DNA of 64,000 nucleotides from Flagellimonas eckloniae (GTDB taxonomy: Bacteria; Bacteroidota; Bacteroidia; Flavobacteriales; Flavobacteriaceae). A program made the translations under genes and the position numbers. This document shows, in pieces, positions 9,257 through 47,102 of the stretch. The DNA is taken from contig NZ_LCTZ01000002.1 in the NCBI RefSeq assembly GCF_001413955.1, positions 2,342,501-2,406,500 of the forward strand, read 5' to 3'. Under the pieces are notes generated by a model. That model was not told where the DNA came from and did not search any database. It was given only the letters and a program-made list of their open reading frames with translations. How positions within the stretch are numbered: position 1 is the stretch's first letter; every line of letters starts with the position of its first letter.

Positions 9257-9278
9257 ATGAATAAAACCATTTTACTAT
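9257..9278 (+). pseudogene. dinB: 5' fragment of the split Pol IV gene (start codon and first 7 codons)
   Basis: ATG AAT AAA ACC ATT TTA CTA T encodes MNKTILL and then meets prophage sequence, where TAA follows at once. Joining base 9278 (end of CTAT) to base 45904 restores the frame as MNKTILL-LHLDLDTFYVSVER, the expected start of a Y-family polymerase. The upstream operator-like sequences stayed with this fragment, so any transcript starting here now runs into the prophage end. The assignment rests on frame continuity, the CTAT repeat shared with the right junction and the symmetric prophage ends. Confidence 0.75.
9275..9278. repeat. Target-site duplication CTAT, left copy
   Basis: CTAT at 9275-9278 abuts the left prophage end and is repeated at 45900-45903. 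Mu-type transposases usually make 5-bp duplications. A 5-bp reading here (ACTAT against CCTAT) has one mismatch, so 4 bp is the exact identity seen. Confidence 0.55.
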
Positions 9279-9289
9279 AATCGGGAAAT

Positions 9290-9327
9290 CAAATTATACA
9301 TAAAAGTAAAACAAATTGTACGCAAAA
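9290..9327. repeat. Putative transposase sites at the left end
   Basis: CAAATTATACATAAAA (9290-9305) and CAAATTGTACGCAAAA (9312-9327) are repeated with a spacing of exactly 22 bp, the size of a MuA binding site. Related sequences in inverted orientation lie at the right end. They are the best candidates for transposase binding sites. Confidence 0.6.
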
Positions 9328-9379
9328 ACCTTGATGGTGAGGGTTTTTACAATACTTCCAAACAGTATAGTCTATTTTG

Positions 9380-9417
9380 TTAAACGCTATTTAAACACAG
9401 TTTAAACGCCCTTAAAC
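9380..9417. repeat. Phased TTAAAC array near left end
   Basis: TTAAAC occurs at 9380, 9391, 9402 and 9412, a period of 10-11 bp, so all copies face one side of the helix. The array overlaps the stop of the tail-collar gene. Similar pairs occur near the right end and inside the prophage (for example 23684, 30192, 45665). Confidence 0.6.
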
Positions 9418-10262
9418 TGTATCATAGCCAAAGTAAAGAAAGGCGGCCTGTTTTCATGGGGCTGACCACCACCTTTATTGTTTGTGGTTATTGAATGTGT
9501 ATGCGCTCCGGCGCTGTTAGTAGTTCCTGTTCGTGGTGTATCCAAGTCAGTGGCGCCACCAATTCCGCTTTGAGTGGTATTACTTCCGTTGGTTCTGTAT
9601 ACAGTGGCATTATGGGAATGGGAACCAGCGGAATTGGTGCTTCCGTCATGGTTGTGCGCAGGCATTTCGCTTTCAGTCAATGTATGCTCTTTTTCACCTC
9701 CGGTATCCCCAATATCATAGTCGTCATCACCGCTATCATAGCCAACAATAAACCTGCCGGATAGGTCGGGGGTTCCATTACTGCCATCACACAAAGCCCA
9801 TCCATCAGGAATATCGGCTATAGCACCAGCCCACATTATTATTCCGCCTATAGGCATTTTTGCGGATTGAAGCTCCAAAATGGTTTCCAGCCTTTTTAAA
9901 TCTGCCCAATCCATTGTGGCTTCACCAGTATTTCCAAATTGGGCTGTTCTGGTAAAATACGTGTCTTTAGAATCGCCTTGGCCATCAACCGGGCTTACAT
10001 CTTCTAAATAGGTGGCCTGTTCAATAGTTTCTATAATGGTCACCTCTGCACCGACTGGGCCACCGATAAAACGAACTATTTCTCCATTAAGTACCATCCA
10101 ACCATCTGAAACCACACCTGCGGTATCGACACATCCCTTTAGGATATAATTTTCGCCCCCAACGGATGCCAATTGAGCAACGGTTCCTATCATGGACTGT
10201 ATTAACATCAAAAATTCATTATCCCCCGGGAAACCATCCCCTTGTGCTATAAATTTATCCAT
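9402..10262 (-). CDS. Tail collar domain fibre protein
   Basis: This 286-residue protein is the last gene of the leftward tail operon. The middle carries the tail-collar signature PIGGIIMWAGAIADIPDGWALCDGS then GTPDLSGRFIVGYDSG (residues ~137-175), and the C-terminus is rich in His, Gly and Asn (PAHNHDG, AGSHSHN, GAHTHS, PHENRPPFFTLAMIQ), typical of collar/microcystin-dependent-type fibres. In virions such proteins sit at the fibre tip or baseplate and contact the host. The start overlaps the end of the preceding gene by 8 bases. The stop codon lies in the TTAAAC array. Confidence 0.78.
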   Translation of the reverse strand: MDKFIAQGDGFPGDNEFLMLIQSMIGTVAQLASVGGENYILKGCVDTAGVVSDGWMVLNGEIVRFIGGPVGAEVTIIETIEQATYLEDVSPVDGQGDSKDTYFTRTAQFGNTGEATMDWADLKRLETILELQSAKMPIGGIIMWAGAIADIPDGWALCDGSNGTPDLSGRFIVGYDSGDDDYDIGDTGGEKEHTLTESEMPAHNHDGSTNSAGSHSHNATVYRTNGSNTTQSGIGGATDLDTPRTGTTNSAGAHTHSITTNNKGGGQPHENRPPFFTLAMIQFKGV

Positions 10263-10752
10263 AACTCACTGTATATGTTTTATCAGGTAATTTGTAAAAA
10301 TCCACCAAAGCTTTCAATCGAATCATTTCAGGATTACTTAAATTCAATCCATTGGGAAGAACAACCTTGAAATCTTCGTCAAACTGTGCAAGGCTGGCCC
10401 TATCATAAAATCTGACAGGTTGATTGTTGGCCCGGTCATCAAAACGAACAGGTTTATCATCGTTTCTATCATAAAACCACACTGGCAAGGTGTAAACACC
10501 ATCTTCAATTACAATTCTTCGTTGTACTGTATCAAATGTATCGTTCAAGACCTTTTCTATAGAAAACACTTGAGCGGTATGTTCTAACTTATAGTTGGTT
10601 CTGTCCCTATATTGTAAAAACTGGATATGAAGCTCAGCTATAGGATGAACCAAGCATACCAACCAATGCAACATCTTGGTCGTTCTTCTCTTAATTGGGA
10701 CCAAAGAACCAACAAAGCGGTTAAAATCGATATTGAATATACTATCGTACAT
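10255..10752 (-). CDS. Putative baseplate protein in the gp48 position
   Basis: This 165-residue protein is not recognised by sequence. It follows the baseplate J-like gene (sharing base 10752) and precedes the collar fibre, the place where Mu has gp48 and P2 has gpI, proteins that join baseplate to fibres. Its middle contains three near-repeats, VWFYDRNDDKPVRF, DDRANNQPVRF and YDRAS, a short beta-like repeat of about 11 residues. No signal peptide or membrane segment is seen. The role is inferred from position only. Confidence 0.6.
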   Translation of the reverse strand: MYDSIFNIDFNRFVGSLVPIKRRTTKMLHWLVCLVHPIAELHIQFLQYRDRTNYKLEHTAQVFSIEKVLNDTFDTVQRRIVIEDGVYTLPVWFYDRNDDKPVRFDDRANNQPVRFYDRASLAQFDEDFKVVLPNGLNLSNPEMIRLKALVDFYKLPDKTYTVSYG

Positions 10753-11621
10753 TAAGCCTGCACTGTTTTGGGTATAAAGTTTATGGTTAAGTCACTATCA
10801 GATATTTCCATGTAACCGCTGTTGGCTATTGCAAAATCCTCAATCGCAACATAGTTCACCGGATTGGTAAAACTATGTTCAGCTTGTTTTACCGAAACTT
10901 CCCTTTCACTGCAACCTTCAACCTCTTGAAGCGCATCAACCAATTCAGCAATGCTGAACTCGCCATTGAAAGGTAGGTTTTTTAGGTATGCACGCAATGC
11001 ATCTTGCACAGGCTGGTTATTGGCTCCGTCTATCCTGCCTCCTGTCTCCGTAAGGACAAGTGGGTCATAGTAAAAATCCATGGTCAGACGTAATTTATCC
11101 GGGTCATCACTAAATACTTGAAACTTAGTTCCAGCGGGTGAAAGTCGGTTCCAGTAATCAATCAAACTATTTTTTTGGTCGTCGGTCAATTTTTGAAGGT
11201 TTCCGTCTGAATCCTCTGAAGCCGCCTTTATAAAAACAAACCTTCGCCCATCAAGTTCCTTGTTTTCAACAGAAGCCCTTTTAATGATTTGTGCGTCTTC
11301 TATTTCCTCATCGGTATATCCATCGTCCGAGTAAACTAATTGGGCGCCTGAAGCAACAAGAGGGTGGCCATATCGAAATGATAACGTAGCCTCTCTAAAC
11401 CAATCCAAAGTAAACAGTTTCTGCTCTGCTATTTTCTGGTCGGTCTCTTGTGTATAGGTATCATGGAATTGATACAATACCCATATAGAAGCTGCTACTA
11501 CGTATGCCCATAGATTATAAAGAGCAACCTTACTGGTGCTATCAAGTTCGTCCAAACTGGAAAACTCCGCCTTTTTGGCAAGGATTTCTTGCTTTATTTC
11601 ATCAATAGTCGGTGTGGCCAT
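10752..11621 (-). CDS. Baseplate J-like protein (gp47 counterpart)
   Basis: This protein of about 289 residues would form the baseplate wedge around the tail hub. The start MATPTIDEIKQEIL at 11621 is preferred over an ATG 48 bases upstream that lies in the preceding gene. The N-terminal helix, central strand-rich region (LRLTMDFYYDPLVL) and the C-terminal ALRAYLKNLPFNGEFSIAEL segment fit baseplate J-like proteins of Bacteroidota phages. In Mu, gp47 directly follows gp46. Here about 5 kb of other genes lies between them. The identification is from memory of the family and from order. Confidence 0.6.
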   Translation of the reverse strand: MATPTIDEIKQEILAKKAEFSSLDELDSTSKVALYNLWAYVVAASIWVLYQFHDTYTQETDQKIAEQKLFTLDWFREATLSFRYGHPLVASGAQLVYSDDGYTDEEIEDAQIIKRASVENKELDGRRFVFIKAASEDSDGNLQKLTDDQKNSLIDYWNRLSPAGTKFQVFSDDPDKLRLTMDFYYDPLVLTETGGRIDGANNQPVQDALRAYLKNLPFNGEFSIAELVDALQEVEGCSEREVSVKQAEHSFTNPVNYVAIEDFAIANSGYMEISDSDLTINFIPKTVQA

Positions 11622-11820
11622 TGTCCTTGGTTTTTTCTTTTTTAATATCCTTTCTCCATTTCTCGACAATCGGCTTTAAAAAGACCCAAACAATACCTGA
11701 AATAATAGGGAGGAAGAACCTTAATACCATATCCATTGGAATGGTAATGCTCAACGCTATTGTAGGTAGAATCAGTTTCCAGTTAACAGCTTGAAACAAG
11801 CTTGATATAAAGTTTCCCAT
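11602..11820 (-). CDS. Small membrane protein
   Basis: This protein of about 72 residues has one or two hydrophobic segments (WKLILPTIALSITI and FFLPIISGIVWVFL) and a strongly basic C-terminus (EKWRKDIKKEKTK). It overlaps the baseplate J-like gene by 20 bases and follows another membrane gene. Size and tail resemble a holin, but no motif proves that. The ATG at 11841, inside the previous gene, is an alternative start adding seven residues. Confidence 0.55.
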   Translation of the reverse strand: MGNFISSLFQAVNWKLILPTIALSITIPMDMVLRFFLPIISGIVWVFLKPIVEKWRKDIKKEKTKDNGHTDY

Positions 11821-11830
11821 GTGAAATAAC

Positions 11831-12265
11831 TTATGTAGCATTTTGACCTCCTTTCTTTCCTTTTCTTTTTGCCCATAGACTCAACAGCCACGCCCCAGAC
11901 AGGTAAACCAGCGTAACAACATGTTCTTGTGGAATATTCAATTCCATTTGCAATAGAGCTTCAACCGTTGCCACCACCCTTTTGGCAATCCATGGCTCCA
12001 AACCTGGGATAAGCGCAAGTACTAAACTGTACACGGCCTGAAACAAAATAGCCCATATTGCAAAATGTTTGTGTCTTACCCAAAATTTACCAGGTCTATT
12101 TTTTGAGAGGTCCGTGCCATAAACGGCTAGACCCAAAATTACCAGTCCTAGAAACGACAGTCCCAGGTTCTTTCCAAAAAGCTCCCAAAATGTCTGACTG
12201 AAAACTCCCGAACTTAACAATGTTGTTGTAATATCCATGTCCATTTGTATTTTTTCAATGATCAT
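11831..12265 (-). CDS. Multi-pass membrane protein of the tail cassette
   Basis: This 144-residue protein has about three hydrophobic segments (LGLSFLGLVILGLAVYG, FAIWAILFQAVYSLVLAL and VVTLVYLSGAWLLSLWA) and a basic C-terminus (KRKGKKGG). It overlaps the secreted protein gene by 11 bases, so the two are translationally coupled. A holin or an anchor for the exported neighbours are both possible. It is not recognised as a known family. Confidence 0.6.
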   Translation of the reverse strand: MIIEKIQMDMDITTTLLSSGVFSQTFWELFGKNLGLSFLGLVILGLAVYGTDLSKNRPGKFWVRHKHFAIWAILFQAVYSLVLALIPGLEPWIAKRVVATVEALLQMELNIPQEHVVTLVYLSGAWLLSLWAKRKGKKGGQNAT

Positions 12266-13547
12266 AAAACCATCTCAGTGAGTTTATCAATGTTGCATTA
12301 TCATTGTTCCCAGGTGTTGGGTTTGGATTGCTCGTTCCCCCAAATACCCCATCTACCGGCACCCAATGTTCTGGATAGATTGGCCTTCCGTTCTGTAACA
12401 TATATTCGTTGTAATAGAGGGTCCCGGCAAAGGGCGCTCGGTTAGCATCATTTGCATCTGCATTGTCCGCAAAGTTGTCATGCATCGATTCGTTCCATTG
12501 GGTTATCCTCAACATCAATGCATCGGATAAATCGCCATTAGACCCCGTACCACCAGATAAATCTACATTTCTGTAAAAGTTGTAGTTATTAAAATTTGAA
12601 ACAGTCCTATTCGTGGTATTTGCAAAGCGTATTAAATCGGTTACCGTCCAATGTTCACCTACTTCATAGCCTGTCACCACAGCTGGTATCATGTGCCCAT
12701 TATGATTAACGTCTTGCGGGCCGATGGAGGCGGAATTTCCCCATATCGAAGACCATTCGTATAGGTCGTTTCCTGAGTCATATTCCAACTGCCCGGCCAT
12801 GCTCTCACCGCTATGGTTTGAACTGCCCGGCATACCATTGAACATGATATTATCGTATACATCTTTAGCTGTGGTGTTCCCGTTAATGGCGTAAATACAA
12901 GCTGCCATTTGCGCAACCTCTGTTGCCATATGTGTTCGATTTCTATAAGCGTTGTCCGCTAAAGCACCCCCGTTTTGCTCTGTGTTATTGTACCATTTTT
13001 CAAAAACGTTTTCTTCCCACCAGTCCACACGGCCCTGCCACCAGTTCGGATAATCTAAATTCAATTGAGCCTTGAATGTAGGACTGTGGTGGATGTCCTT
13101 CAAGAACTCCATTACAAAACGGCCTATAAAAAACTCCCATAAGGGCGTTCCATTTGCGCATCTATCTATTTCTGTAACACTTGGATTGGATTGGCCGCAT
13201 TGACTAGTAGAAGGCCATCCTTTATAAGTCTGCCCCCCAGATTGTACGTCTACAGCATCAGACTCCATGTTGTCTATCCAACCTTTCATCCGGTTGAAGT
13301 GAACAATGCTTCCTGTGGAACGCCACATCAAAAGTTCAGCCATAAACGAGTCAGCGCTCCTATAAAATTCTTGGTTGGGATTTGCGGAGTCAAACCCTAA
13401 GTTTGGATTTATATTTACATCATTACCATCGCTCCCTGTAGTTGAACCATTGTATTCCCTGTCATACAAGTCCTTTAACTCCACTAGGGACTGTTGTCCA
13501 AATGAAGTGGACAATACAAAGAACAATATGTATAAAATATTTTTCAT
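12255..13547 (-). CDS. Secreted protein with lyase-like features, unassigned
   Basis: This 430-residue protein begins with a clear Sec signal peptide, MKNILYILFFVLSTSFGQ with cleavage before QSL. The ATG at 13547 shares one base with the preceding stop (TGATG), so the longer in-frame start is not needed. The mature part is rich in Trp, Asn and His and looks helical in the middle (MATEVAQMAACIYAI) with segments such as DVNHNGHMIPAVVTGYEVG. This recalls alpha/alpha-barrel polysaccharide lyases, but no catalytic motif can be confirmed. It lies inside the baseplate operon, so a tail-associated or exported glycan-degrading enzyme is a hypothesis. Confidence 0.6.
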   Translation of the reverse strand: MKNILYILFFVLSTSFGQQSLVELKDLYDREYNGSTTGSDGNDVNINPNLGFDSANPNQEFYRSADSFMAELLMWRSTGSIVHFNRMKGWIDNMESDAVDVQSGGQTYKGWPSTSQCGQSNPSVTEIDRCANGTPLWEFFIGRFVMEFLKDIHHSPTFKAQLNLDYPNWWQGRVDWWEENVFEKWYNNTEQNGGALADNAYRNRTHMATEVAQMAACIYAINGNTTAKDVYDNIMFNGMPGSSNHSGESMAGQLEYDSGNDLYEWSSIWGNSASIGPQDVNHNGHMIPAVVTGYEVGEHWTVTDLIRFANTTNRTVSNFNNYNFYRNVDLSGGTGSNGDLSDALMLRITQWNESMHDNFADNADANDANRAPFAGTLYYNEYMLQNGRPIYPEHWVPVDGVFGGTSNPNPTPGNNDNATLINSLRWFYDH

Positions 13548-15475
13548 CAATTTGTGTATGTTATGGAAATGGATGGCGCCACCCCGGTGCCGTTCCAAGA
13601 TATAGCTACTCTCTCACCAGAACCTGACAAGTGCGTGAATATTACCCCAAGGTTATCGGACGAATCATATCCGCCCCTGTTTACCCACTCCTGTACAGCA
13701 GAAGAAATATCCACGGTGTCGTATGTACTTCCATCCGTCCACGATTCAATACTGCTCCACGCTATTGTTGTTGCCGTTGTTGTCCTGTTGGTTATACTTG
13801 AATTGTTTGTATTGGATAAGGCAGCATCCGCACTTTCAACATTGATGTTCTGGCTAATGGCATCAGAATCCGTTGCGCTGGCCTCAAAAGTTACCACTGC
13901 ACTTACGATTGTTGCTCCAGCGGGAATGCTAAGTCCAGGAAATACTGTCAACACTGCTTGTGCATCATTGAAGTTCAACGCGCCCGAACCATTGGCAACA
14001 CTGCCACTTGAGGTTGTTTCTTCCCCATCGCCCAAACTTTCGTCAACCGAAGCTGTGGCAACTGCGGTAGCATCATACCCTACCATATTACCGGAAGCGG
14101 TATAGGTGTTTGTTGCTGTTTTTCTTAAAATTACATATTGGTCATACCCTTCGAGTTTAACACCTCCTTCTCCTTGGGAGCCTATGAAATTGATGGTCAC
14201 CCCAGTGTCACTTATAAGATTTATTATGGCTCCAGCATTGTCCGTTCTAAAAGGCCATACATCGTCTACGTTTCCGGTATCATCAACGGTAATGGATATT
14301 TCGTTTGCACCACTTTCAGCATTTACAATCTTCCTACCTATATCAGCCCCAGAGGTCACATTTTGGTCAAGTGTCGATAAATTGACATCTGCGGACAGTT
14401 CAACAGAAACAGGGGATTTGTTGGCGTTTGATAATCGGTTTTGGTCATCTGTGGAAAGGCTTCCTCCTTCTCCTTCAAATAGAACTTTTTCAAAACCGCT
14501 ACCCCTGTCAACCTCAAATGAATTATCTGAATTGTTCATTCTGACCGTTCCCGTACCGTCAGTTCCAACATTTGTCGGTTGCAATTTCATGCGAACGCTG
14601 GCGTGTATAAAGGGGAAGTTAACTGTTCCAATTCCTGTTAAACTGGTCAGGCTGTTGATTTCATTTCCGTTGGCATCCAATGTGCCGCCTAATTCTGGGG
14701 TCGTGTCTTCCACAACATTAGCTATGCCAGAACCTGAACCATTTAAATACAAATCATCCAAAGCTCCTTCGACTGTGGTTTGACTATTATTAGTGTATGG
14801 AACTTCCGATGCTGTTTGGTCATCTGAACCCCCGCCGCCTCCGGCATTATCTACATAATCTTTAGTTGCCACATCTGTACTAATTGTTGGTGCTCCGGAA
14901 CTATTAAAAGTATAATCATACCCCACTCCATTTGATTCAAAATCAATTCCAGCTAAATCACTTCCTAACCAAAAAATGACCAAATCCAAACCATCCACCC
15001 CACCAAGAAGCTGAATTGTTCTGGTATCGTTATCTGATATAAGACCATTCCCAGAAGAATGAAGTAAAGAGAAATCAGATGTAAGTATATTTGAACCTTG
15101 TGTCAAATAAAGGGAATTGTCGATACCAATCTGATAAGGACTCCCAATCGTACCAGAACCAGATATTGTTATCGGTGAAGTTGCATTAACAATAGTTCCA
15201 GAACCATCAATATCAAGATTTACTGGTATGTTGGTAATATTTGTCCAATCAACCGAAGAACTAGCTGACATTCTGGGAACCCATCCAGCACCAATATTAA
15301 TAACTTCCAAACCTAACGTCACATCATAGGCAGTATACACAACATTTGTATCAGAAACATCAATCTGTGATATTTCGGTTGTTGTCAGCTTTCCTAGCCT
15401 AATATATTTTTGTTTAGCTTGGCCATAGCCAAAGAAGATGCCCAATAAGGACAATAACAATAATAGATTTTTCAT
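13547..15475 (-). CDS. Fibre-like protein with signal peptide and C-terminal DNRLRE-like domain
   Basis: This 642-residue protein starts with a Sec signal peptide (MKNLLLLLSLLGIFFGYGQ). The body is Gly/Ser/Asn/Thr-rich and beta-type, as in phage fibres (SPITISGSGTIGSPYQIG, ATKDYVDNAGGGGG, DLYLNGSGSGIANVVEDTTPELG). The last ~150 residues (from about ATIVSAVVTFEAS to VQEWVNRGGYDSS and GVAPSISITY) resemble DNRLRE/CBM96-type adhesion domains. Tail fibres are normally assembled in the cytoplasm without a signal, so the signal peptide is odd. It may be exported to the cell surface or cleaved only in part. Confidence 0.65.
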   Translation of the reverse strand: MKNLLLLLSLLGIFFGYGQAKQKYIRLGKLTTTEISQIDVSDTNVVYTAYDVTLGLEVINIGAGWVPRMSASSSVDWTNITNIPVNLDIDGSGTIVNATSPITISGSGTIGSPYQIGIDNSLYLTQGSNILTSDFSLLHSSGNGLISDNDTRTIQLLGGVDGLDLVIFWLGSDLAGIDFESNGVGYDYTFNSSGAPTISTDVATKDYVDNAGGGGGSDDQTASEVPYTNNSQTTVEGALDDLYLNGSGSGIANVVEDTTPELGGTLDANGNEINSLTSLTGIGTVNFPFIHASVRMKLQPTNVGTDGTGTVRMNNSDNSFEVDRGSGFEKVLFEGEGGSLSTDDQNRLSNANKSPVSVELSADVNLSTLDQNVTSGADIGRKIVNAESGANEISITVDDTGNVDDVWPFRTDNAGAIINLISDTGVTINFIGSQGEGGVKLEGYDQYVILRKTATNTYTASGNMVGYDATAVATASVDESLGDGEETTSSGSVANGSGALNFNDAQAVLTVFPGLSIPAGATIVSAVVTFEASATDSDAISQNINVESADAALSNTNNSSITNRTTTATTIAWSSIESWTDGSTYDTVDISSAVQEWVNRGGYDSSDNLGVIFTHLSGSGERVAISWNGTGVAPSISITYTN

Positions 15476-15768
15476 TTTTTATCGAGTTTCCAGTTATAGA
15501 TTTCTTGGCCTTTTCTCGTATACATAACGGCCTCATTATTTTCATTTATTTCAAGCCTTGGGGTTTCGTCCCTAATCTTGGCCATAGCCTCATCTTGTAA
15601 TAAGAGGGCATCAATCAACTGTTTTCTTTTCTTTTCATTGTGGTTTTGCGCATCAATCAAATTCAGGGCCATATCAGCCTCGACATCAACCTGCTTTTTC
15701 CAAAGCAAAAACAATGACACAACCAATGCTGCGATTACAAATCCAAAAATCCAAAGTGCTATTATCAT
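15472..15768 (-). CDS. Single-pass membrane protein, spanin-like layout
   Basis: This 98-residue protein has one N-terminal membrane segment (IIALWIFGFVIAALVVSLFLLW) followed by a charged, helical, coiled-coil-prone stretch (ALNLIDAQNHNEKKRKQLIDAL). It overlaps both neighbours by four bases. The layout fits an inner-membrane spanin or an anchor for the exported fibre, but no second spanin component is certain. No family is recognised. Confidence 0.5.
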   Translation of the reverse strand: MIIALWIFGFVIAALVVSLFLLWKKQVDVEADMALNLIDAQNHNEKKRKQLIDALLLQDEAMAKIRDETPRLEINENNEAVMYTRKGQEIYNWKLDKK

Positions 15769-16436
15769 GGGTATGATGTAAAAAGGTTAATATCTAACTC
15801 TTGGTCGGTGGCCTGCCCGTCGGGCATGTCCCGCTTAAATTCTCCATGGCACCATTCACCATTTTCATATCTTCCATCACCACGTCCTTGAAATTCCTCA
15901 CCAGCAATTGGATAATTGTTGGTGTTGGTGGTATTTTTATACCACCTGTAACCGTTCCATTTTAGGAATTGGGTAGATGCCAAGTCCGTTAACAGGTCAT
16001 TTAACGCATTCAATTGGTCTTGTAGGCCCGTCAAGGTCGTTCCCAAGTCCGTAATCTCACCTATGGTATGCTCGGGAGGGTGAACGTAATTGTTGAGACT
16101 GTTTAGTTTAGCCAACAATGCCGTAGTGAAATCCTCCGTGGACAATTGTTTTCCAGTGACCTTATCCACTTTTGCATCCAACGCACTTTGTAGTCCTGAA
16201 ATCTTTGCTATGGTGAAATTGGTAGGTTCTTGGTACTGCTTTATGGTCGTTGCAGCTTCATTGCCCTCGCCGTCCTTCAATGTAATTTCCAAGTCAGTTC
16301 CGTTGGCTTGAATCCCAACGACCAAGTTGCCTTCATCCTTGTGCCAAAAACTGGCCAATATGTTCTGCCATTTGGTAATTATAACAGGGTCGGTACAGGT
16401 CAAGTACGCTAATAATATTGATAAACTTTGCTTCAT
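15765..16436 (-). CDS. Tail fibre-like protein with triple-helix-type repeat
   Basis: This 223-residue protein contains the segment ALDAKVDKVTGKQLSTEDFT followed by TALLAKLNSLNNYVHP, a pattern common in fibres of Bacteroidota phages. The C-terminal region is Gly/Trp/Asn-rich (FLKWNGYRWYKNTTNTNNYP). The N-terminus MKQSLSILLAYLTC is moderately hydrophobic but less convincing as a signal peptide than those of its neighbours. It starts right after the LysM-like gene and overlaps the membrane protein gene. Role: fibre or baseplate decoration, inferred. Confidence 0.6.
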   Translation of the reverse strand: MKQSLSILLAYLTCTDPVIITKWQNILASFWHKDEGNLVVGIQANGTDLEITLKDGEGNEAATTIKQYQEPTNFTIAKISGLQSALDAKVDKVTGKQLSTEDFTTALLAKLNSLNNYVHPPEHTIGEITDLGTTLTGLQDQLNALNDLLTDLASTQFLKWNGYRWYKNTTNTNNYPIAGEEFQGRGDGRYENGEWCHGEFKRDMPDGQATDQELDINLFTSYP

Positions 16437-16995: not shown

Positions 16996-16996
16996 A

Positions 16997-17200: not shown

Positions 17201-17205
17201 TCAAA

Positions 17206-38692: not shown

Positions 38693-38693
38693 A

Positions 38694-39338: not shown

Positions 39339-39400
39339 ATTTCAATTATTAAGGTTCTACTATTTCAGGGTCAATCACCTCAATTTCCATGAGTTCTTCC

Positions 39401-39586: not shown

Positions 39587-39971
39587 ATTCCACGATTTTC
39601 TTAGACCTTGCATGATTTAAAAGGCGTTTACTGAAAAGCCTGTGCGTATCCACTACAGACCTGTTCAATATCTGGAGTGCTTCCTCCGGGCTTGGCAATG
39701 GTTTCATATCCGTTACATGGTCCAGAAAATCCAATAGACAGTCCAAATAAGCATCCAACCAAAACTTGAACAGTGAATTGTCAGCTACCAAATTTTGAAG
39801 GTCTTTATCGTCCCTTTCAGCGAATATCACGTGGCCGTTTTGGGTTGGTATTGAATATTGGTTACTATAGCTCTTGTTTTCGCACCATCTAAGCCAATCC
39901 TCCATGATACGTTCTTCCATCTGCTGGTCATCAAACCCTAAAACCACCTTTATTTGTTGTTCTTCAGTCAT
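39573..39971 (-). CDS. Hypothetical early protein
   Basis: This 132-residue acidic protein (EQQIKVVLGFDDQQMEERIM, FKFWLDAYLDCLLDFLDHVT, PLPSPEEALQILNRSVVDTH) is helical in the second half. It overlaps its downstream neighbour by 14 bases. Function unknown. Confidence 0.55.
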   Translation of the reverse strand: MTEEQQIKVVLGFDDQQMEERIMEDWLRWCENKSYSNQYSIPTQNGHVIFAERDDKDLQNLVADNSLFKFWLDAYLDCLLDFLDHVTDMKPLPSPEEALQILNRSVVDTHRLFSKRLLNHARSKKIVEYVGS

Positions 39972-40010
39972 TTTTTTTGGTTTTATTCAATTTTAAATAC
40001 CGTACATAGC

Positions 40011-40124
40011 TATCGTGGCAATAAACCCCAAACACAAACCAAATGCTACCCCAAACAGTGCAGCTATTATCAATTCTATTATGTATTCCCTGTTTTCTTT
40101 TAATCTTAGAAAAGTTTTGTCCAT
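40011..40124 (-). CDS. Small membrane peptide, 37 residues
   Basis: ATG 40124 gives MDKTFLRLKENREYIIELII followed by AALFGVAFGLCLGFMPR, one membrane segment after a charged N-terminus. It lies 12 bases downstream of the ATPase gene. Small size makes the call moderate; role unknown. Confidence 0.45.
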
Positions 40125-40136
40125 GATATTTTTATT

Positions 40137-40775
40137 TTAAATGTTCTTCCAATATTTGTCCGCACCTTCTTGCCATACGATGTATTCATCAGGCAGTTTG
40201 CCACGGCTCATTCTACTTCGGCTGGTCACCTTGAATCCTTCGGCGAACAGTTTTACGTCGGCATCGAAACGAATCTTCTTGGCCAATGCCCCAACAGCTT
40301 GTTTGCCATCGGCATGGCTGTTGAATATGAACAACTTGGTAGGGAAGTCGGCCAATAGTTGCTTGTACTCCCTGATGTTCATTTTTAGGTACTGCACCGA
40401 ATCGATTATGATGATTTTGGCGCTTCGCTTTTGCATCAATCTTTCACGGTGGTCTTCTATGGGCCAACCGTTCAACAACATAAAAGAACCCTTTCGGCAC
40501 TCTGTCATCTTGTTTTCTTCCATCAAAGACCGCATACTGCCACGGTCTTCTTCTTCCAGTGCGTTATAATCGACTTTATAGTATTTCGTAAGCTCTTTGG
40601 CCAGTTGCATCAGGAAAGTAGATTTACCCATGCCGGAATCACCCATAAGAAACCAACTGCCCCGGCATTCGGGCGTTCCAATCAGGTTCTTGAAATTTCC
40701 TATCAACGGTATGGTCTCCACTTTCTGGCTTTTCATTTTCTGCGGACTGATTGCCCGCCGTTTCATTTTTCGCAT
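40137..40775 (-). CDS. RecA-fold ATPase of the transposition region
   Basis: This 212-residue P-loop ATPase has Walker A FLMGDSGMGKSTFLMQLAKE near residue 43 and Walker B AKIIIIDSVQYLKMN near residue 118, with IFNSHADGKQAVGALAKKIR after it. It resembles RecA/RadA-type phage ATPases found beside MuB in Bacteroidota Mu-like phages. A role in recombination or replication of phage DNA is likely. It follows the MuB-like gene after 18 bases. Confidence 0.68.
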   Translation of the reverse strand: MRKMKRRAISPQKMKSQKVETIPLIGNFKNLIGTPECRGSWFLMGDSGMGKSTFLMQLAKELTKYYKVDYNALEEEDRGSMRSLMEENKMTECRKGSFMLLNGWPIEDHRERLMQKRSAKIIIIDSVQYLKMNIREYKQLLADFPTKLFIFNSHADGKQAVGALAKKIRFDADVKLFAEGFKVTSRSRMSRGKLPDEYIVWQEGADKYWKNI

Positions 40776-40793
40776 AGTGTTCTACGGTATGCG

Positions 40794-41690
40794 TTAAGCA
40801 GGTTCTCCTACTTCTTGAAATTCCTGTACAGTTATTTCGTTTATGGCCTTTGCCATGATTTGTTGCTGTATCTCTATGTCTCGCTTCACACGTCTCATAT
40901 CACCATCGGAATTGGCATAGATATACCCGATTGTCTCAGCGTCAAATATGTCATTGGCGTTACAAACCTTTCGAACATCGGATTTTGAAATTGGGTCAAG
41001 ACCAATGAACTTTCTACCTATACGGCTGTACATTTCTGCATATCCTATCTTATCACGGTTAACACCGTTCATCACCCGTTTTTCAAGTGCCTTTACACCG
41101 CTTAGAACAAAGGCACAGTATCCATCAAGCTCGTTGTAAAAATCCATGAACAAGTCCATCTGTGAATCCTTTAGCTTATCAAACTGGTCAATGATTACTA
41201 TGGGCCTGTGCATTCCCTTCAATTTTTTTATAAAGGTCTCAACAAGGAATTCCAACGTTCCGCTATTATTAAGGCCAGCAGCGGCCATAAGATGCTTCAT
41301 GTAGCTTTTCTTTGTCCATGAGTTTGCGCATTCAAGGTGAATCACGTTATCGTGGTTCTTCACATACTGACGGTATGCATGGGTCTTTCCGCGTCCTGCA
41401 TTTTCGCTTATCGCGATACTGATACTGTTGTCATGGGCGTTCTTGATGAGTTGGGTAAGGAGAAGTAAATTTGAGGTAGGTGCGGATTTCCAAGAAAAAT
41501 CCATACGAAGGTTGACTTCAATGGACTTGAACATATCAACGCTTATGGTACTCCATTTTTTGTTGATTATCTGGTTGATTATGGCGGCCGATACCCTGGC
41601 CCTGTTAGCCACCTTGGCCTGTGATGTCTTCTTGGCCTGTCTGGCGACTTCATCTGCGATACGGTGCATTTGTGCTACTGAAAAATCCAT
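40794..41690 (-). CDS. MuB-like transposition ATPase
   Basis: This 298-residue protein starts with a helix-turn-helix-like region (QAKVANRARVSAAIINQIIN) and then an AAA+ ATPase: Walker A SIAISENAGRGKTHAYRQYV near residue 95, Walker B PIVIIDQFDKLKDSQMDLFM near residue 165, and sensor-region FVLSGVKALEKRV. MuB binds target DNA and activates the MuA transposase. It follows the transposase gene after 11 bases, the Mu order A-B. The HTH-AAA layout is the same as in MuB. Confidence 0.82.
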   Translation of the reverse strand: MDFSVAQMHRIADEVARQAKKTSQAKVANRARVSAAIINQIINKKWSTISVDMFKSIEVNLRMDFSWKSAPTSNLLLLTQLIKNAHDNSISIAISENAGRGKTHAYRQYVKNHDNVIHLECANSWTKKSYMKHLMAAAGLNNSGTLEFLVETFIKKLKGMHRPIVIIDQFDKLKDSQMDLFMDFYNELDGYCAFVLSGVKALEKRVMNGVNRDKIGYAEMYSRIGRKFIGLDPISKSDVRKVCNANDIFDAETIGYIYANSDGDMRRVKRDIEIQQQIMAKAINEITVQEFQEVGEPA

Positions 41691-41701
41691 AGTTTATAGT
41701 G

Positions 41702-43693
41702 TTACATTCTATCGAGAAAACTTAGCGATTCGACTTCGCTGCGCCTTTCTTTGGGAAGGCTGCCACCCAATTTCATATCCAGTTCTTGGTCTTCGACCAG
41801 TTTTTCAGGGGTAAGTCCCGTGCGTTTCCTAATCTGCTCCACACGTTTTTTGATTCGTTCTTCCTCGGTGATTTTGACCTTCATGTCCTTACGCATGATT
41901 ACGCTTTCCTCCTTGGTTCTTGTAGCACCGATGGGGTTGGCCAGTCTCTTTGGCTGCGCATCCGCTATGAACTGACGGTTACCATTGGGAAGTTCCACAT
42001 GTAACCTAACATAGTTGTCCATTTGGTCAGGGTCGTACTGAACAAAGAACTTGCAGTTTGTCCATTTGTCCCTGAAATCGATATCTATGTTCCCGTCGGC
42101 ATCGTATACTTCGTAGTGGTATTCCTTGCCTGAAATGATAGGCCGAATACCCTCACGGGTGTACTTCCTTGAATCCTTTGTGGAGACCCAAAACATATCC
42201 ATGGCATCGAACACGGTGATTTCCTCCTTTAATACCTCTATATGGTTCTGGTATACCTCCATTCGGGTCTCAGGATGGTTGGGGTGCTTTGATCTGTTCC
42301 ACTGCTCCACACATTGATTGAATGCCCTTTCCAGTTCCTGCCACGGCTTGAGTTTGTGCTTGAACGATTTGATGAAATCCACATTGACATGGCTGTCCAT
42401 CTTTTTGCTTCGGACACCCTGCTTGTCAGAGAACCATTTAGTGTTCAATACTTGCTGTTGGAACCTACTGAAAAGGCCTTCCACTGGTGAACCATGACGT
42501 CGAGCAGCGTGCTTATAGTGCTTGCCGCCGTTGTTGGCGACGAGTTTACCATATAGGTTCTGCATTTCCTTGGTGGTGTGTCCGCTCTGACCGTCATAGG
42601 AAAATTCAAAAGGACGCCTTAAAGTGTTGTTAACCGCCATTTTAATGGCCTTAAAGTGGTCGCCATGGGTCTCTGTTTGGGAAAAGCTAAACCCTAATAT
42701 CCGCTCACTGTAAACATCGAAGACCAAATCTATCTTGATGTCAGCACCCATTCCCTGCGCATTGTCCTTGAAATGCACCCAATCCAACTTGGAACCATCG
42801 ATGGCCCAATAGGCATTCGGAAACATTTTGTTCTTGTCACGGCGCATCTTATGCCCAAATTTGTTCCTGAAGTAATCTTCACCATGACGGGCATAGCACC
42901 ATAATTTTTCCTGTCTCGGTTCCTTTAGCCATTTGTTTATGGCCGATTCGGATAATATCGGCCAACCGTTGGCCGTCCTCACCTTCATATATTCCGTATG
43001 CAATACCGGAACCACTGGTTTATTGGGAAGCATATAAAAACCCAATATCCATTCGGCCACTGCACCCTTTATCTTTTTGCTGTTGGTATTGCCGATGGCG
43101 CTGTGTATGAGCGACTGAAGGCCTTCAGATTTGTATTTTTTCAATTTATTGTCCAATGCCCTATAATTCTTGGGAAGGTTGTGCGGATAGGGTCTTATGG
43201 AAGTGCCGGGTCGGGTGAATGCCTGAAGTTTGGTTATCACCTCACAGATTTCTTTTTTTGCCGGGCCAATCTTTATTCGCATACCAGTGCGCTGTTTTAC
43301 CTTGATGTCATAAATTAGCTTGTCGTACAAGTCTAAAATCTGAGCTTCGGCATAATACTGTGCAATGCGTTCGGGAAGAAGTCCACGGCCATCTTCATCA
43401 ATGTACTCATCAAAATACCTTGAAGCCTCTATATTGTTTTCCAACCTATCCGTGAACCTTTTTACGTCGTCTTGGCTGTATGGGTCTCCATATGCATTTT
43501 TTACAGCTTCTTTGAAAGTTTGTGGAAGACTTGAAAATTCAATTAAAGCCTGTCTTCCATTTCCACCGTTTCTTATTTTGTTTATCTTTCCAGACCTACA
43601 GTAATATTTATAGTTTGGATATGACATCAAGCACATATCTTCATAAAGAACAACTGCCGGAACCGCTATAGTATTTTGGTAAGTTTGGTACAT
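41702..43693 (-). CDS. MuA-type DDE transposase
   Basis: This 663-residue protein integrates and replicates the phage by transposition. The N-terminal part (YPNYKYYCRSGKINKIRNGG) is a DNA-binding region; the catalytic core shows YWAIDGSKLDWVHFKDNAQG (first Asp ~297), RRPFEFSYDGQSGHTTKEMQ (second Asp ~367) and ARRHGSPVEGLFSRFQQQVL (Glu ~404). A C-terminal basic region (KVKITEEERIKKRVEQIRKR) may contact MuB. Length equals Mu A (663 residues). Binding sites are likely the CAAATWATACATAAAA repeats at the ends. Confidence 0.9.
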   Translation of the reverse strand: MYQTYQNTIAVPAVVLYEDMCLMSYPNYKYYCRSGKINKIRNGGNGRQALIEFSSLPQTFKEAVKNAYGDPYSQDDVKRFTDRLENNIEASRYFDEYIDEDGRGLLPERIAQYYAEAQILDLYDKLIYDIKVKQRTGMRIKIGPAKKEICEVITKLQAFTRPGTSIRPYPHNLPKNYRALDNKLKKYKSEGLQSLIHSAIGNTNSKKIKGAVAEWILGFYMLPNKPVVPVLHTEYMKVRTANGWPILSESAINKWLKEPRQEKLWCYARHGEDYFRNKFGHKMRRDKNKMFPNAYWAIDGSKLDWVHFKDNAQGMGADIKIDLVFDVYSERILGFSFSQTETHGDHFKAIKMAVNNTLRRPFEFSYDGQSGHTTKEMQNLYGKLVANNGGKHYKHAARRHGSPVEGLFSRFQQQVLNTKWFSDKQGVRSKKMDSHVNVDFIKSFKHKLKPWQELERAFNQCVEQWNRSKHPNHPETRMEVYQNHIEVLKEEITVFDAMDMFWVSTKDSRKYTREGIRPIISGKEYHYEVYDADGNIDIDFRDKWTNCKFFVQYDPDQMDNYVRLHVELPNGNRQFIADAQPKRLANPIGATRTKEESVIMRKDMKVKITEEERIKKRVEQIRKRTGLTPEKLVEDQELDMKLGGSLPKERRSEVESLSFLDRM

Positions 43694-43697
43694 ACTA

Positions 43698-43892
43698 TCA
43701 GGGAATAGGTTGAAAAAATTCGATAGTTCTTTTTAAATCTTCGAATATTTTCGACGCCTTGTTACTGTCAATATCAACATCATTGGAAATAATGTTATTG
43801 ATATAAGTATGACTTACCTTATGTTTACGAGCTATGGCGCGAACTTTACCCATAAGTATCTCTTTTTCTGATTCTGTTAATTCCGCTTTCAT
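43698..43892 (-). CDS. Ner/Cro-like HTH regulator
   Basis: This 64-residue protein has a helix-turn-helix (GKVRAIARKHKVSHTYINNI, residues ~15-34). It is first in the leftward early operon, directly before the transposase, and divergent from the repressor, the position of Mu Ner, which represses early transcription and the repressor gene. Three palindromes lie in the 80-base gap to the repressor gene. Confidence 0.68.
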   Translation of the reverse strand: MKAELTESEKEILMGKVRAIARKHKVSHTYINNIISNDVDIDSNKASKIFEDLKRTIEFFQPIP

Positions 43893-43905
43893 AAAAAAAT
43901 ATTAC

Positions 43906-43960
43906 TTTCCGATGTGGAAACAAATATATTAGAATATAATCTAATATTCCAAACTGGAAT
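43906..43960. promoter_or_regulatory. Operator region with three palindromes
   Basis: TTTCC-N5-GGAAA (43906-43920), TATTAGA-N6-TCTAATA (43927-43946) and ATTCCA-N3-TGGAAT (43946-43960) fill the gap between ner and the repressor. The outer two share the core TTCC-N5-GGAA, so one protein may bind both and the middle site another. This is the likely lysis-lysogeny switch. Confidence 0.6.
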
Positions 43961-43972
43961 CGAAAAAATTTT

Positions 43973-44440
43973 ATGATTACGTCGAATTTAAACGATTATT
44001 TAACCCGAAAAGGTATTACTCCTTCGAGGTTAGAAAAAGACCTTAAAGTCAGTAATGGTAGTATTTCTGGGGCTATTTTGCATGACAGAAGTATTGGGTC
44101 TAAGGTGGTAGAAAAAATTTTACTGAAATTTCCTCAATTAAATGCAAATTGGCTTTTTACTGGTATCGGTGAAATGGAGTTAAATATCGACCAAAGTGGT
44201 TTGCTAAATGAAAGAATAATCTCTAAAGGTGAAGATGTAAATCTTATAAATGAGGTTGTTTCTTTTTTTGGTTTAGGCTCAAAAAGAGAGTTAATCGAAC
44301 TTTTTGAACGTATCAACGAAAAAAAGGCCATAGCCAATCAGAACATTATGGCGATGAAAATGGAGAGGCTAGAAACGCTGATGGGTACGTTGGTAGTAGA
44401 TATGAATGAACTTAAAGAGGAAAAACAAAGAAAAAAGTAA
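43973..44440 (+). CDS. XRE-type phage repressor
   Basis: This 155-residue protein has an N-terminal Xre/CI-type HTH (LNDYLTRKGITPSRLEKDLK then VSNGSISGAILHDRSIGSKV, residues ~6-46, with KFPQLNANWLFTGIGEM typical of Bacteroidota XRE repressors) and a C-terminal coiled coil (IELFERINEKKAIANQNIMA, KMERLETLMGTLVVDMNELK) for oligomerisation. It runs opposite to ner and transposase and should keep the prophage silent. No protease-like C-terminal domain is present, so induction by RecA-type cleavage is not expected. Confidence 0.78.
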   Translation: MITSNLNDYLTRKGITPSRLEKDLKVSNGSISGAILHDRSIGSKVVEKILLKFPQLNANWLFTGIGEMELNIDQSGLLNERIISKGEDVNLINEVVSFFGLGSKRELIELFERINEKKAIANQNIMAMKMERLETLMGTLVVDMNELKEEKQRKK

Positions 44441-44611
44441 TTAAATTTTGGTTAGGTCATCCAATGCGCCATATAAAGCTTCGTTCAATTTATTAAGATT
44501 TTGCTTAAGATTTTGTCTTAATCTATTTCTTATCGCTGCCCTCTCAGTCGCACTGTAAAGATTCTTGTTCTCTTCTAAATCCAGTGCTTGCTCCAACAAA
44601 CTCTTCTTCAT
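44441..44611 (-). CDS. Small helical protein, 56 residues
   Basis: ATG 44611 gives MKKSLLEQALDLEENKNLYS, then RNRLRQNLKQNLNKLNEALY. It overlaps the stop of the upstream membrane gene (ATGA) and ends one base from the convergent repressor stop. Function unknown; coupling supports it. Confidence 0.55.
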   Translation of the reverse strand: MKKSLLEQALDLEENKNLYSATERAAIRNRLRQNLKQNLNKLNEALYGALDDLTKI

Positions 44612-44964
44612 TTATTTCTGGATTTATTGATAAAATAATATGCAATCAATACAAGTGCAAAACCCAAGTTGTACAATACTTTTGTAGTGAATTCATTTGT
44701 AGTGGTGTTCCTTGCATCCCATAAGTAAATGTTAAGTTGGAAGAACAGCATAAATATAGGTGCAAACATTGCCAGTCTATAGGATTTACCCCTTGCATTC
44801 AAAAACGCAAAAATCCATCCAGTTAAGCCTACTATAAACAATGATACTACCCATATACCAACACGAAGGGATGAAAAGCCACTAAAACCTTCCATCCCTT
44901 TAAAAATCTCAAAATCGTGCAAATAAGGTAAAAATGACATGGCTAGAATGAGCAATGCCACCAT
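44608..44964 (-). CDS. Four-segment membrane protein near the right end
   Basis: This protein of ~118 residues starts best at MVALLILAMSFLPYLHDFEI, where AAGGA precedes the ATG and overlaps the end of the lipoprotein gene; longer in-frame starts would run inside that gene. Four hydrophobic segments follow (VGIWVVSLFIVGLTGWIFAF, LAMFAPIFMLFFQLNIYL, VLYNLGFALVLIAYYFI). With the lipoprotein it makes an envelope pair outside the repressor, possibly expressed in the lysogen for superinfection exclusion. Confidence 0.6.
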   Translation of the reverse strand: MVALLILAMSFLPYLHDFEIFKGMEGFSGFSSLRVGIWVVSLFIVGLTGWIFAFLNARGKSYRLAMFAPIFMLFFQLNIYLWDARNTTTNEFTTKVLYNLGFALVLIAYYFINKSRNK

Positions 44965-44971
44965 AAAGTCC

Positions 44972-45109
44972 TTATATATCCGATTCCTTGACTTCTTCGT
45001 TTTCGATTGTGTTTTGATCGATGATTTCATCTGTGCTTTCATTTTCACAGGCGATGGAGATTGATGATACCGCAAACGCCAACGCCAAAACAAATACTAC
45101 TCTTTTCAT
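44972..45109 (-). CDS. Small lipoprotein, 45 residues
   Basis: ATG 45109 gives MKRVVFVLALAFAVSSISIA followed by CENESTDEIIDQ: a lipoprotein signal peptide with lipobox SIAC and an acidic tail after the Cys. Such small lipoproteins near prophage ends often block infection by related phages or alter the envelope. It is too short for routine calling but the signal is clear. Confidence 0.62.
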   Translation of the reverse strand: MKRVVFVLALAFAVSSISIACENESTDEIIDQNTIENEEVKESDI

Positions 45110-45535
45110 GTGAAGAAATTTTTATGATTAATAATGTCATAAAATTATCTCCAAATGACTGTTATGTAGGAAATTACTTTTTAATTTATCAAAAAGATAT
45201 TAAGATAAAAGGTAATCTAAGGGGAAGGGCAATTTAGGTATTAATTTGTTGCGGTAGTTATAGAAAAACCTTAAAAATACTGTGGTTTTTACCCATGCTT
45301 AACACTAATATAAACAAATAATACCAGTTTTATTTTATAGAATCTAATTATAATAACATGTAAATATCTGTTTATCAGTTTAATAAGAATAATTATAACT
45401 TATTTTAGGTGCATTGTCAGGTGTTATAAGTAATATTTATATGTTGCTTTTAGTGAATTTTAGCCGTGTTTAATGTAAATTTTAACATATTTTAAGCCAA
45501 AAACTCCATTTATAAGTGATTAAAATCAATAAAAT

Positions 45536-45571
45536 ACTATCCCCAACACTATCCCCAACACTATCCCCAAC
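45536..45571. repeat. Three tandem 12-bp repeats
   Basis: ACTATCCCCAAC is repeated three times without mismatch. It is the only C-rich stretch in the AT-rich right end. A protein binding array is possible; it is too short and lacks spacers, so it is not a CRISPR. Confidence 0.7.
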
Positions 45572-45664
45572 CTTAAATGCATACATTTTCAAACTTTTAT
45601 AAATTCGTTTTATTTAGCATATATACATGAAGAAACTATTGCATTTTCTCAATTATAAATACCT

Positions 45665-45680
45665 TTAAACGCCTTTAAAC
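45665..45680. repeat. TTAAAC pair near right end
   Basis: TTAAAC at 45665 and 45675 in the context CTTTAAACGCC TTTAAACAG matches the phased array at 9380-9417, with 10-bp spacing. Confidence 0.55.
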
Positions 45681-45778
45681 AGTAATACATAGGTTATTTT
45701 AGGTTTTAGCACGTATTCGGTTGTAAAACAATTGTAAATTAAAATCAATTGGTTGTAGACAAAAGGAAGTCAATGGTA

Positions 45779-45888
45779 GTTTATGTATAATTCGTTTAAA
45801 GTTGGAGGCACACCCTAAAAACGCGGGCAACCCCAATAAACATCTATTATTTGAACGATTTTTGAACTTATTTTTTATGTATTATTTG
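45779..45888. repeat. Putative transposase sites at the right end
   Basis: Read inward (minus strand) the sites are CAAATAATACATAAAA (45888-45873), CAAATAATAGATGTTT (45853-45838) and CGAATTATACATAAAC (45794-45779). The outermost lies 11 bp from the junction, exactly as at the left end. Confidence 0.58.
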
Positions 45889-45899
45889 TTTTCTTAGCC

Positions 45900-45903
45900 C
45901 TAT
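45900..45903. repeat. Target-site duplication CTAT, right copy
   Basis: This copy follows the right prophage end; the left copy is 9275-9278. Only one copy is needed to restore the Pol IV frame. Confidence 0.55.
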
Positions 45904-47102
45904 TACATCTTGATCTGGATACTTTCTATGTATCCGTAGAGCGTATCATTAATACGGAGCTTCAAAGCAAGCCACTATTGGTAGGTGGTACCAGCGATCG
46001 TGGTGTAGTGGCAGCATGCAGTTATGAGACACGAGGGTTTGGAGTACATTCAGGCATGCCCATGAAAATGGCCAAGGAGCTTTGCCCGGAAGCCGTCGTA
46101 ATTCGCGGCAATGCCGGCACATATAGCAAATATTCCGATGTGGTCACGGAAATCATCAAAGAACATGTACCTCTTTTTGAAAAATCGAGTATTGATGAAT
46201 TCTATGCCGACCTTTCGGGTATGGATCGTTTTTTTGGTTGTTATAAATACGCCTCAGAAATGCGACAAAAAATCATAAAAGAAACCGGATTGCCTATCTC
46301 ATTTGGACTTTCCGTAAACAAGGTCGTTTCTAAAGTAGCCACCAATGAGGCCAAACCTAACAACCAGCTTAAAATAGATTTTGGCCTGGAAAAACCATTT
46401 TTGGCTCCTTTGTCCATCAAAAAAATCCCTATGGTGGGCGACAAAACCTATCAAACCCTAAGAAATTTGGGTATTCGGAAAGTGAAAACGGTACAGAAAA
46501 TGCCCATGGATATTATGCAACGGGTACTGGGGTCCAACGGGAGAATCATCTGGAAACGCGCCAATGGCATGGACAACACTCCTGTAATCCCCTTTCATGA
46601 CCGTAAGTCCATTTCTACGGAACGTACCTTTGACAGGGATACCATTGATGTTACCAAGCTCAAAGGAATTTTACTTGCCATGACCGAGAATTTGGCCTAT
46701 CAATTGCGACGGGGCGATAAACTGACCGCATGCATCACGGTGAAAATTCGATATTCAGATTTTAATACCTATTCCAAACAATTACGGATTCCCTATACCA
46801 GTGCTGATCATATTCTTATTCCAAAAATCCTGGGACTGTTCAATACGCTATATAGCAAGCGAATGTTGGTACGCCTAATCGGGATTCGATTCAGTCATTT
46901 GGTCTCGGGCAATTATCAAATCAATCTTTTTGAAGATACTGAAGAAGCCTTGAACCTATATCAGGCCATGGATTATGTGCGAAATAGGTTTGGTGGACGA
47001 AGTGTTATACGAGCCTCTGCCATGGGAGCAAAAACTATAGGCAGCATGTACAACCCTTTTAACGGACAACCTCCGGTGGTGTTGGCGCATAGAAAACAAT
47101 AG
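45900..47102 (+). pseudogene. dinB: DNA polymerase IV, main part, cut from its start by the prophage
   Basis: This is the rest of a Y-family translesion polymerase of ~408 residues. From the junction the frame reads LHLDLDTFYVSVERIINTEL with the first catalytic Asp, then VAACSYETRGFGVHSGMPM, FEKSSIDEFYADLSGMDRF with the catalytic Asp-Glu, GLPISFGLSVNKVVSKVATN and a little-finger domain. There is no ATG between the in-frame stop at 45852 and the catalytic motif; a TTG at 45978 would drop that motif. Its ATG and regulatory sequence remain at 9257. It precedes a DnaE2-type polymerase, a damage-tolerance pairing. Confidence 0.82.

Follow-up and report, generated by a model that had tools for sequence, protein, structure and literature searches.

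The stretch of DNA analysed here (hereafter the window), 64,000 nucleotides from the genome of Flagellimonas eckloniae (4.13 Mb, in two contigs), contains a Mu-like transposable prophage at exactly positions 9276–45902 (36,627 bp), which splits a gene of the dinB type, encoding a Y-family DNA polymerase. An earlier note on this DNA had drawn attention to the split gene; it is real, its description is corrected below, and the interesting part is the place of the insertion. The phage lies next to a tandem pair of predicted SOS operators, and a sister phage in a second genome lies at almost the same distance from such a pair, within a different polymerase gene, umuC. Judging from these sequences, I lean towards the view that the choice of insertion site was guided by the operator. 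As to how, I narrowly favor the proposal that a lineage of Mu-like phages of marine Flavobacteriaceae recognizes the tandem LexA operators ahead of genes for translesion polymerases, or else the repressor that sits on them.

Prophage boundaries and the empty dinB site

The features on which the argument draws are as follows.

9199..9228, + strand: tandem GGA-N5-TCC boxes at 9199-9209 and 9218-9228 with a 19-bp spacing, predicted to be the LexA/SOS operator of dinB
9257..9275, + strand: 5' piece of the dinB-type gene, the ATG and the next five codons, with the left TTAC at its end
9272..9275, + strand: left copy of the 4-bp target duplication TTAC
9276..45902, - strand: Mu-like transposable prophage, with the "right" end (muR) at 9276 and the "left" end (muL) at 45902; the ends match those of Peternella_1 and of the G444, G322 and G123 elements
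40794..41690, - strand: MuB-like DNA transposition protein (phrog_296, E 1.3e-40; AAA_22)
41702..43693, - strand: MuA-like transposase (phrog_310, E 1.6e-59; without Pfam match)
45903..45906, + strand: right copy of the 4-bp target duplication TTAC
45903..47102, + strand: 3' piece of the dinB-type gene (Pfam IMS and IMS_C), open to the stop
47220..50246, + strand: dnaE2 (DNA polymerase III alpha-type), open reading frame (ORF)

The prophage ends were set by their match to those of Winogradskyella phage Peternella_1 (Winoviridae, Peternellavirus; NC_062754). Read inward, muR from 9276 is TATAATCGGGAAATC and muL from 45902 is TAGGGCTAAG-AAAACAAATAATACAT; the deposited ends of Peternella_1 are TATAATCGTGAAATC and TACAGGGGAT-AAAACAAATAGTACAT, and the patterns TATAATCG.GAAATC and TA-N8-AAAACAAAT are common to both phages. 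With the ends so placed, a copy of TTAC is left over on either side. The direct repeats are exactly 4 bp long in all six elements for which both ends were read (TTAC in the window, TGTG in G444, ATAT in G322, TACC in G123, AACT in G832 and GTCC in G831), which suggests, on sequence grounds, that a 4-bp duplication is the rule for the Peternella_1-like phage family; Mu is reported to duplicate 5 bp and B3 6 bp (PMC8705779). The CTAT repeat that the earlier note had placed at both junctions is partly phage end sequence, the left copy consisting of a target C and phage TAT, and the right copy of phage CTA and a target T.

At least 568 relatives of the gene are available, and the best 80 were used for the alignments and for the comparison of operators and neighbors. 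Collapsed onto a single TTAC, the empty site aligns without a gap to all 80; the CTAT join does so to none. The start of the gene reads x-K-T-I-L-H-x-D-L-D in every one of these relatives, which puts six codons before the break and not seven, as had been proposed, and the corresponding join MNKTILL-LHLDLD contains two extra leucines and needs a 6-nt gap in each of the 80 alignments. The remainder of the earlier description holds: the prophage parts the ATG and first codons from the rest of a Y-family polymerase (IMS and IMS_C), the frame is kept across the junction, and the 3' piece lacks its start, with no in-frame ATG, GTG or TTG ahead of the DLD motif and the first one, TTG 45978, past it. 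In prophage-free relatives, with which the note had proposed a comparison, the gene is whole and the two pieces are adjacent. The insertion of a phage and the disruption of dinB are therefore virtually certain, and dinB is probably null, because its start and its catalytic motif are separated.

Within the genus, an orthologue of at least 89% identity is present in 38 of 71 genomes, that of F. eckloniae included, with all 400 query residues covered and no stop; the window piece is 97% identical to its counterpart in Flagellimonas algicola. A dnaE2-like gene is the neighbor at 78 of the 80 relative loci, and the broken gene does belong, as had been claimed, to a dinB-dnaE2 pair disrupted by lysogeny. 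On the left, the window has a LacI-type regulator (8170-9192), which is the neighbor at one of the 80 loci (up to 5 kb upstream being read). Since wider synteny on this side is rare, the adjacency of the two dinB pieces depends on the conservation of the leader, the operator and the coding start. The host genome has two IMS genes, and only the broken one has an SOS box close upstream, no GGA-N5-TCC box being found in the 1.4 kb read upstream of the second. At the end of dinB (47100-47178), the heptamer TAGGCTG is repeated 11 times, and the stop TAG forms the first three bases of the array.

Insertions next to tandem SOS operators

In Bacteroidota, a non-canonical LexA uses the motif GGA-N5-TCC as its operator, as found in one species by electrophoretic mobility shift assay with mutated sites, and the predicted LexA regulon of this phylum, about nine operons in size, is dominated by dinB, often in an operon with a DNA polymerase III alpha gene (PMC8565304). 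In the 150 nt ahead of the dinB start, at least one box is present in 78 of the 80 relatives and the 19-bp pair in 73, the two loci with none being L056 and L063; on average there are 1.91 boxes per 150 nt, whereas mononucleotide shuffles give 0.009. The genome has a single S24 gene, LexA-like with HTH_3 and Peptidase_S24 domains (L105, G000:C2 ~753000), and three GGAAATATTCC boxes lie between it and a divergent radical-SAM gene. The genome thus has what is expected of a LexA regulon, namely an operator ahead of dinB-dnaE and, as repressor, an S24 protein that carries a CI-like HTH and is preceded by boxes of its own.

The nearest relative of the window phage with a readable site, G444 (38,237 bp), was picked up by its MuA alone (70% identical; matches in two of the 71 genus genomes, own included), without a polymerase query. 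Forty of the 46 window phage ORFs are matched in this element, at 35–88% identity. The downstream part of its host gene has IMS, IMS_C and DUF4113 and is umuC, and the piece on the other side of the phage reads MYALIDCNNFYASC. Relative to the junction, the boxes are at -79/-60 in G444 and at -77/-58 in the window, so that the distance from the junction to the centre of the operator pair is 62 nt and 60 nt, respectively; in both cases muR faces the operator. The break lies six codons into dinB in the window and fourteen codons into umuC in G444, and since these codon positions differ while the spacing is kept, the distance to the operator is the better-kept coordinate. These are sister phages in different genes, and therefore not one inherited insertion.

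A further case was found in IMG/VR, where a search with dinB returned one relative (81%), on contig IMGVR_UViG_3300009412_002054 (L161). A phage with a MuA about 30% identical to that of the window has its end there, TAGGGCCCGT-AAAATGAATAGTACAT, a short way ahead of a dinB that is intact. The first box of a 19-bp pair lies 52 nt from this end, which corresponds to about 65 nt from the operator centre if a 4-bp duplication is assumed. Here muL faces the operator, from the upstream side, unlike in the window and G444.

These positions could be explained as follows. The phage would have inserted by transposition, duplicating TTAC, six codons into an SOS-boxed dinB-type gene, its insertion machinery having been guided to a point about 60 nt, or some six helical turns, from the centre of the tandem operators; a spacing near six DNA turns would fit a fixed complex. 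The guide may be the host LexA-like repressor or MuB, in that MuB could read the operator itself or the complex could dock on the bound repressor. MuB chooses targets for Mu. The N-terminus of the window MuB has a match to HTH_3 (PF01381) at E 0.0038, below its cut-off, and the host LexA-like repressor has an HTH of the same class, above its cut-off. The alignment places an HTH-like N-terminus in the MuB of phages that are not at operators as well, so the MuB HTH alone does not explain the preference.

Several observations weigh against guidance. It rests on the starting case and one unbiased second case, G444; the L161 phage was found with a dinB query, which biases its nearness to dinB though not its spacing from the operator, and its second end lay out of reach. 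The distance is repeated in none of the three other elements with enough flank: around G322, G123 and G832, boxes are absent from the 300 nt next to muR and from as much of the muL flank as was read. The insertion of G123 breaks a 102-codon frame at its end, and G322 sits either within a frame of 63 codons or in an intergenic position. G245, of which muL only is available because the contig ends before muR, has no box within 200 nt, and the 29-nt flank of G831 is too short to judge. No further Mu-like end or protein was found near the 80 dinB loci (250–4988 nt upstream read; five phage proteins), a single weak two-mismatch match to the end pattern at L039 being taken as chance. Finally, insertions of the distantly related Hankyphage are reported from all over the genome of its host (PMC12135933). 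If there is guidance, it applies to only part of the phage family.

Alternative explanations, stability and consequences

An ordinary Mu-like insertion at random would equally have disrupted dinB and uncoupled dnaE2, with the likeness of G444 being a coincidence. This is consistent with three of the five elements with enough flank showing no SOS boxes nearby, with the genome-wide insertion of Hankyphage, and with G444 being the single unbiased second case. However, by simple ratios that ignore selection and base composition, a random insertion would fall anywhere in the three Y-family genes with a probability of ~9e-4, at 55–70 nt from the centre of one of nine operators in 4.1 Mb with ~7e-5, and at 60–62 nt, on the same side and in the same orientation, with ~3e-6. 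The odds for the placement of G444 thus run from ~9e-4 down to ~3e-6, and these small, if crude, figures favor guidance over chance; I regard random insertion as unlikely. Alternatively, insertion may be random and selection may act afterwards: if lysogens in which an SOS polymerase is disrupted, or a phage lies beside an SOS promoter, are favored or tolerated, such sites would become over-represented without any targeting. The umuC-type genes rulB and rumB are indeed described as hotspots for unrelated mobile elements, and a LexA-regulated promoter has been proposed to control the inserted element (PMC4542609). Selection for gene loss would nevertheless not fix the orientation and the 60/62-nt spacing, as an insertion anywhere in the 1.2-kb gene would serve; in L161, both dinB and its operator are undamaged by the phage; and the phage genes at muR, the operator-side end, are oriented against the SOS promoter, so that a simple benefit is not apparent. 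I therefore consider selection distinctly unlikely as the explanation.

A reversible switch is a third reading of the same locus: the earlier note had proposed that precise excision would restore dinB and could shift the mutation rate, which would resemble the behavior of SpyCIM1 in mutL. The insertion at the 5' end of a DNA-damage gene, the retained frame and the short direct repeat would agree with this, but the element is a transposable phage with MuA and MuB and a 4-bp duplication, and the CTAT join expected from the proposed excision cannot be aligned gap-free to any of the 80 relatives. PHROG scans, which covered 30 of the 46 listed phage ORFs, gave no tyrosine or serine integrase, and SpyCIM1 switching is described as resting on site-specific recombination (PMC4689407). 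Mu insertions in a gene are reported to be extremely stable: an induced prophage stays at its site, the original junctions persist through lytic growth, and the rare revertants had lost the prophage (PMC3562280). By analogy with the latter, precise reversion may occur here but should be rare. A switch is thus very improbable, and the insertion appears to be effectively stable.

Whether or not it was guided, the insertion leaves the operator and start to the left of the phage, and the polymerase core and dnaE2 to the right. The claim that lysogeny would leave dnaE2 in place is correct for its coding sequence, which is open, but the operator pair is stranded on the far side of the phage. Because the tandem operator lies beyond the phage, dnaE2 would be expected to lose most of its SOS control, which seems quite probable from the layout; damage-inducible expression would be lost unless the phage end or readthrough drives the gene. 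A sigma-70 scan for a promoter directed outward at muL returned 11 sites, where shuffled sequences give 12.3 on average; the two sigma-70 sites on the + strand lie at 43765-43825, more than 2 kb inside the phage, and one imperfect Bacteroidota-type match at 45639. LexA boxes are absent from the phage gaps 43694-43972 and 45094-45902, and the nine GGA-N5-TCC boxes across the whole phage are, by simple arithmetic, about what is expected by chance for its length. One observation runs counter to a loss of control: a single box is left on the dnaE2 side, at 47064 within dinB (156 nt ahead of the dnaE2 start), and some SOS regulation of dnaE2 could persist through it. This box may be there by chance, as only 8 of the 80 relatives have any box at -60..+150 of the dinB stop.

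Tn7-type directed insertion also occurs at a fixed distance and orientation from a recognized DNA site; in the window phage, MuB with its weak HTH_3 match is no more than a candidate for a selector protein. If guided, this would be, to my knowledge, the first transposable phage with operator-guided targeting. Lysogeny would then be tied directly to the host damage response and would alter host evolution under stress, the phage disabling SOS mutagenesis (dinB-dnaE2, umuC) in the lysogen or parking beside a damage sensor, and the transposition system would have a short known address (tandem GGA-N5-TCC) with a countable prediction of ~60 nt. Even without guidance, the insertion is a natural knock-out of the genome's only IMS-family gene, of two, with an SOS box close upstream.

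Mu and B3 share with the window phage a MuA-type transposase, a MuB-type ATPase and target duplication, and Mu insertions are likewise stable; they differ in their 5/6-bp duplication, compared to 4 bp here, and in the apparent site preference of the window/G444 pair. Hankyphage p00 of Bacteroides is also a Bacteroidota transposable phage with MuA and MuB, but its MuA is only ~27% identical and its insertions are genome-wide (PMC12135933). Integron-like elements in rulB and SXT-family inserts in rumB are further examples of mobile DNA in an SOS-controlled umuC-type gene, with a LexA site upstream of rulAB; the rulB elements use tyrosine recombinases at one position, with a 3-bp repeat (PMC4542609), whereas here a MuA phage is found in two genes at a near-constant operator distance. 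SpyCIM1, in mutL of Streptococcus pyogenes, is similarly a 5'-end element in a mutation-rate gene that blocks downstream operon genes, but it excises and re-integrates by site-specific recombination (PMC4689407), while the window element carries transposition genes. Among the open-licence PMC papers listed on the subject, no report of Mu-like phages in dinB/umuC, or guided by LexA, was found, the nearest being the rulB/rumB hotspot paper.

Phage affiliation and further elements

The other phage features of the window are listed below.

9402..10262, - strand: tail fibre/collar protein (PHROG tail families)
19349..21439, - strand: tail tape measure protein
22465..23682, - strand: tail sheath
24858..25835, - strand: major capsid protein
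25921..27165, - strand: head maturation (Clp-type) protease
28246..29763, + strand: terminase large subunit
30206..31477, + strand: portal protein
40137..40775, - strand: ATPase (phrog_6891)
43973..44440, + strand: phage transcriptional regulator, candidate repressor (phrog_8, E 0.00022; without Pfam match)
45536..45571, no strand: three 12-bp repeats ACTATCCCCAAC inside the muL end

By its sequence, the element is a Mu-like transposable temperate phage related to Peternella_1: it has a MuA/MuB pair and a short duplication at defined ends, and for Peternella_1 itself a MuA transposase has been described, along with genome ends like those of Mu and hybrid reads that join phage and host (PMC8776804). 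Thirty of the 46 window ORFs match Peternella_1 in the same order (tblastn, E 1e-3 or better), and the two phages are alike in MuA, MuB, ATPase, opposite-strand head block, the order of capsid, sheath and tail genes, and terminal sequences. They differ in host genus, and the window MuA is 49.6% identical to the Peternella_1 transposase; the candidate repressor is 27% identical to its regulator. The core genes given for Winoviridae are the Clp protease, neck, major capsid, sheath, phage protein D and head morphogenesis/portal genes, with four unnamed proteins (PMC8776804). At the core positions of Peternella_1 (Clp protease, capsid, sheath, baseplate hub, portal, head, neck), the window phage gives tblastn matches of 35–51% identity, which places it in Winoviridae on the named core genes. 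Membership of Peternellavirus, defined by at least 70% intergenomic nucleotide similarity, is unlikely, as the protein identities are 25–63%.

The assembled genome contains one MuA match, that of the window phage. Beyond it, MuA matches occur in 4 of 397 family, 2 of 71 genus, 4 of 395 order and 4 of 393 'relatives' genomes, counts that each include the own genome and come from overlapping sets with different E limits. A further close MuA (60%, L084) comes from IMG/VR, in a sequence trimmed short of both phage ends, and seven further close relatives (P0002, P0004-P0009) are 59–82% identical, among them P0005 of Spongiimicrobium salis (1.27-Mb contig), P0002 (82%, 30.6 kb), P0008 (109.6 kb), P0009 (21.3 kb) and P0004 (15.1 kb); five plasmid records have MuA below 30% identity. 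The ends of G582, G587 and G724 were not securely found, G582 having a muR-like end without a matching muL. Six other matches to the muR pattern in the genus comprise five that resemble chance and L127 (G410:C12:450015), a muR-like sequence directly after a hairpin in a genome without MuA match. Nine IMG/VR stretches match the end patterns, two being real ends (L115/G832 and L116) and seven apparently unrelated; a muR end together with an operator pair gave 0 matches in this database. An IMG/VR search with umuC returned one contig (L160), which has umuC at its edge and belongs to a different phage, apparently not of the Mu type. In L160 1-2050, umuC is open and is followed by a further ORF resembling an SOS-associated peptidase; the ORF upstream of the broken umuC in G444 (L109 12398-13111) is similar to it.

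Three 12-bp repeats, differing in sequence, lie ~290–330 nt inside muL in five of the seven phages examined (window, G123, Peternella_1, G832 and L161), and were not found in the muL regions of G444 and G322. They are perhaps repressor operators or a transposition enhancer. The window phage also has DNA methyltransferase-like and nucleoside deoxyribosyltransferase-like genes at 34309-35058 and 37639-38097 (- strand). Near muL, a small lipoprotein-like ORF and a membrane-like ORF, labels given by eye, are found in both the window (~44608-45110, - strand) and L161 (4448-5138, - strand), and it is possible that these are lysogeny cargo.

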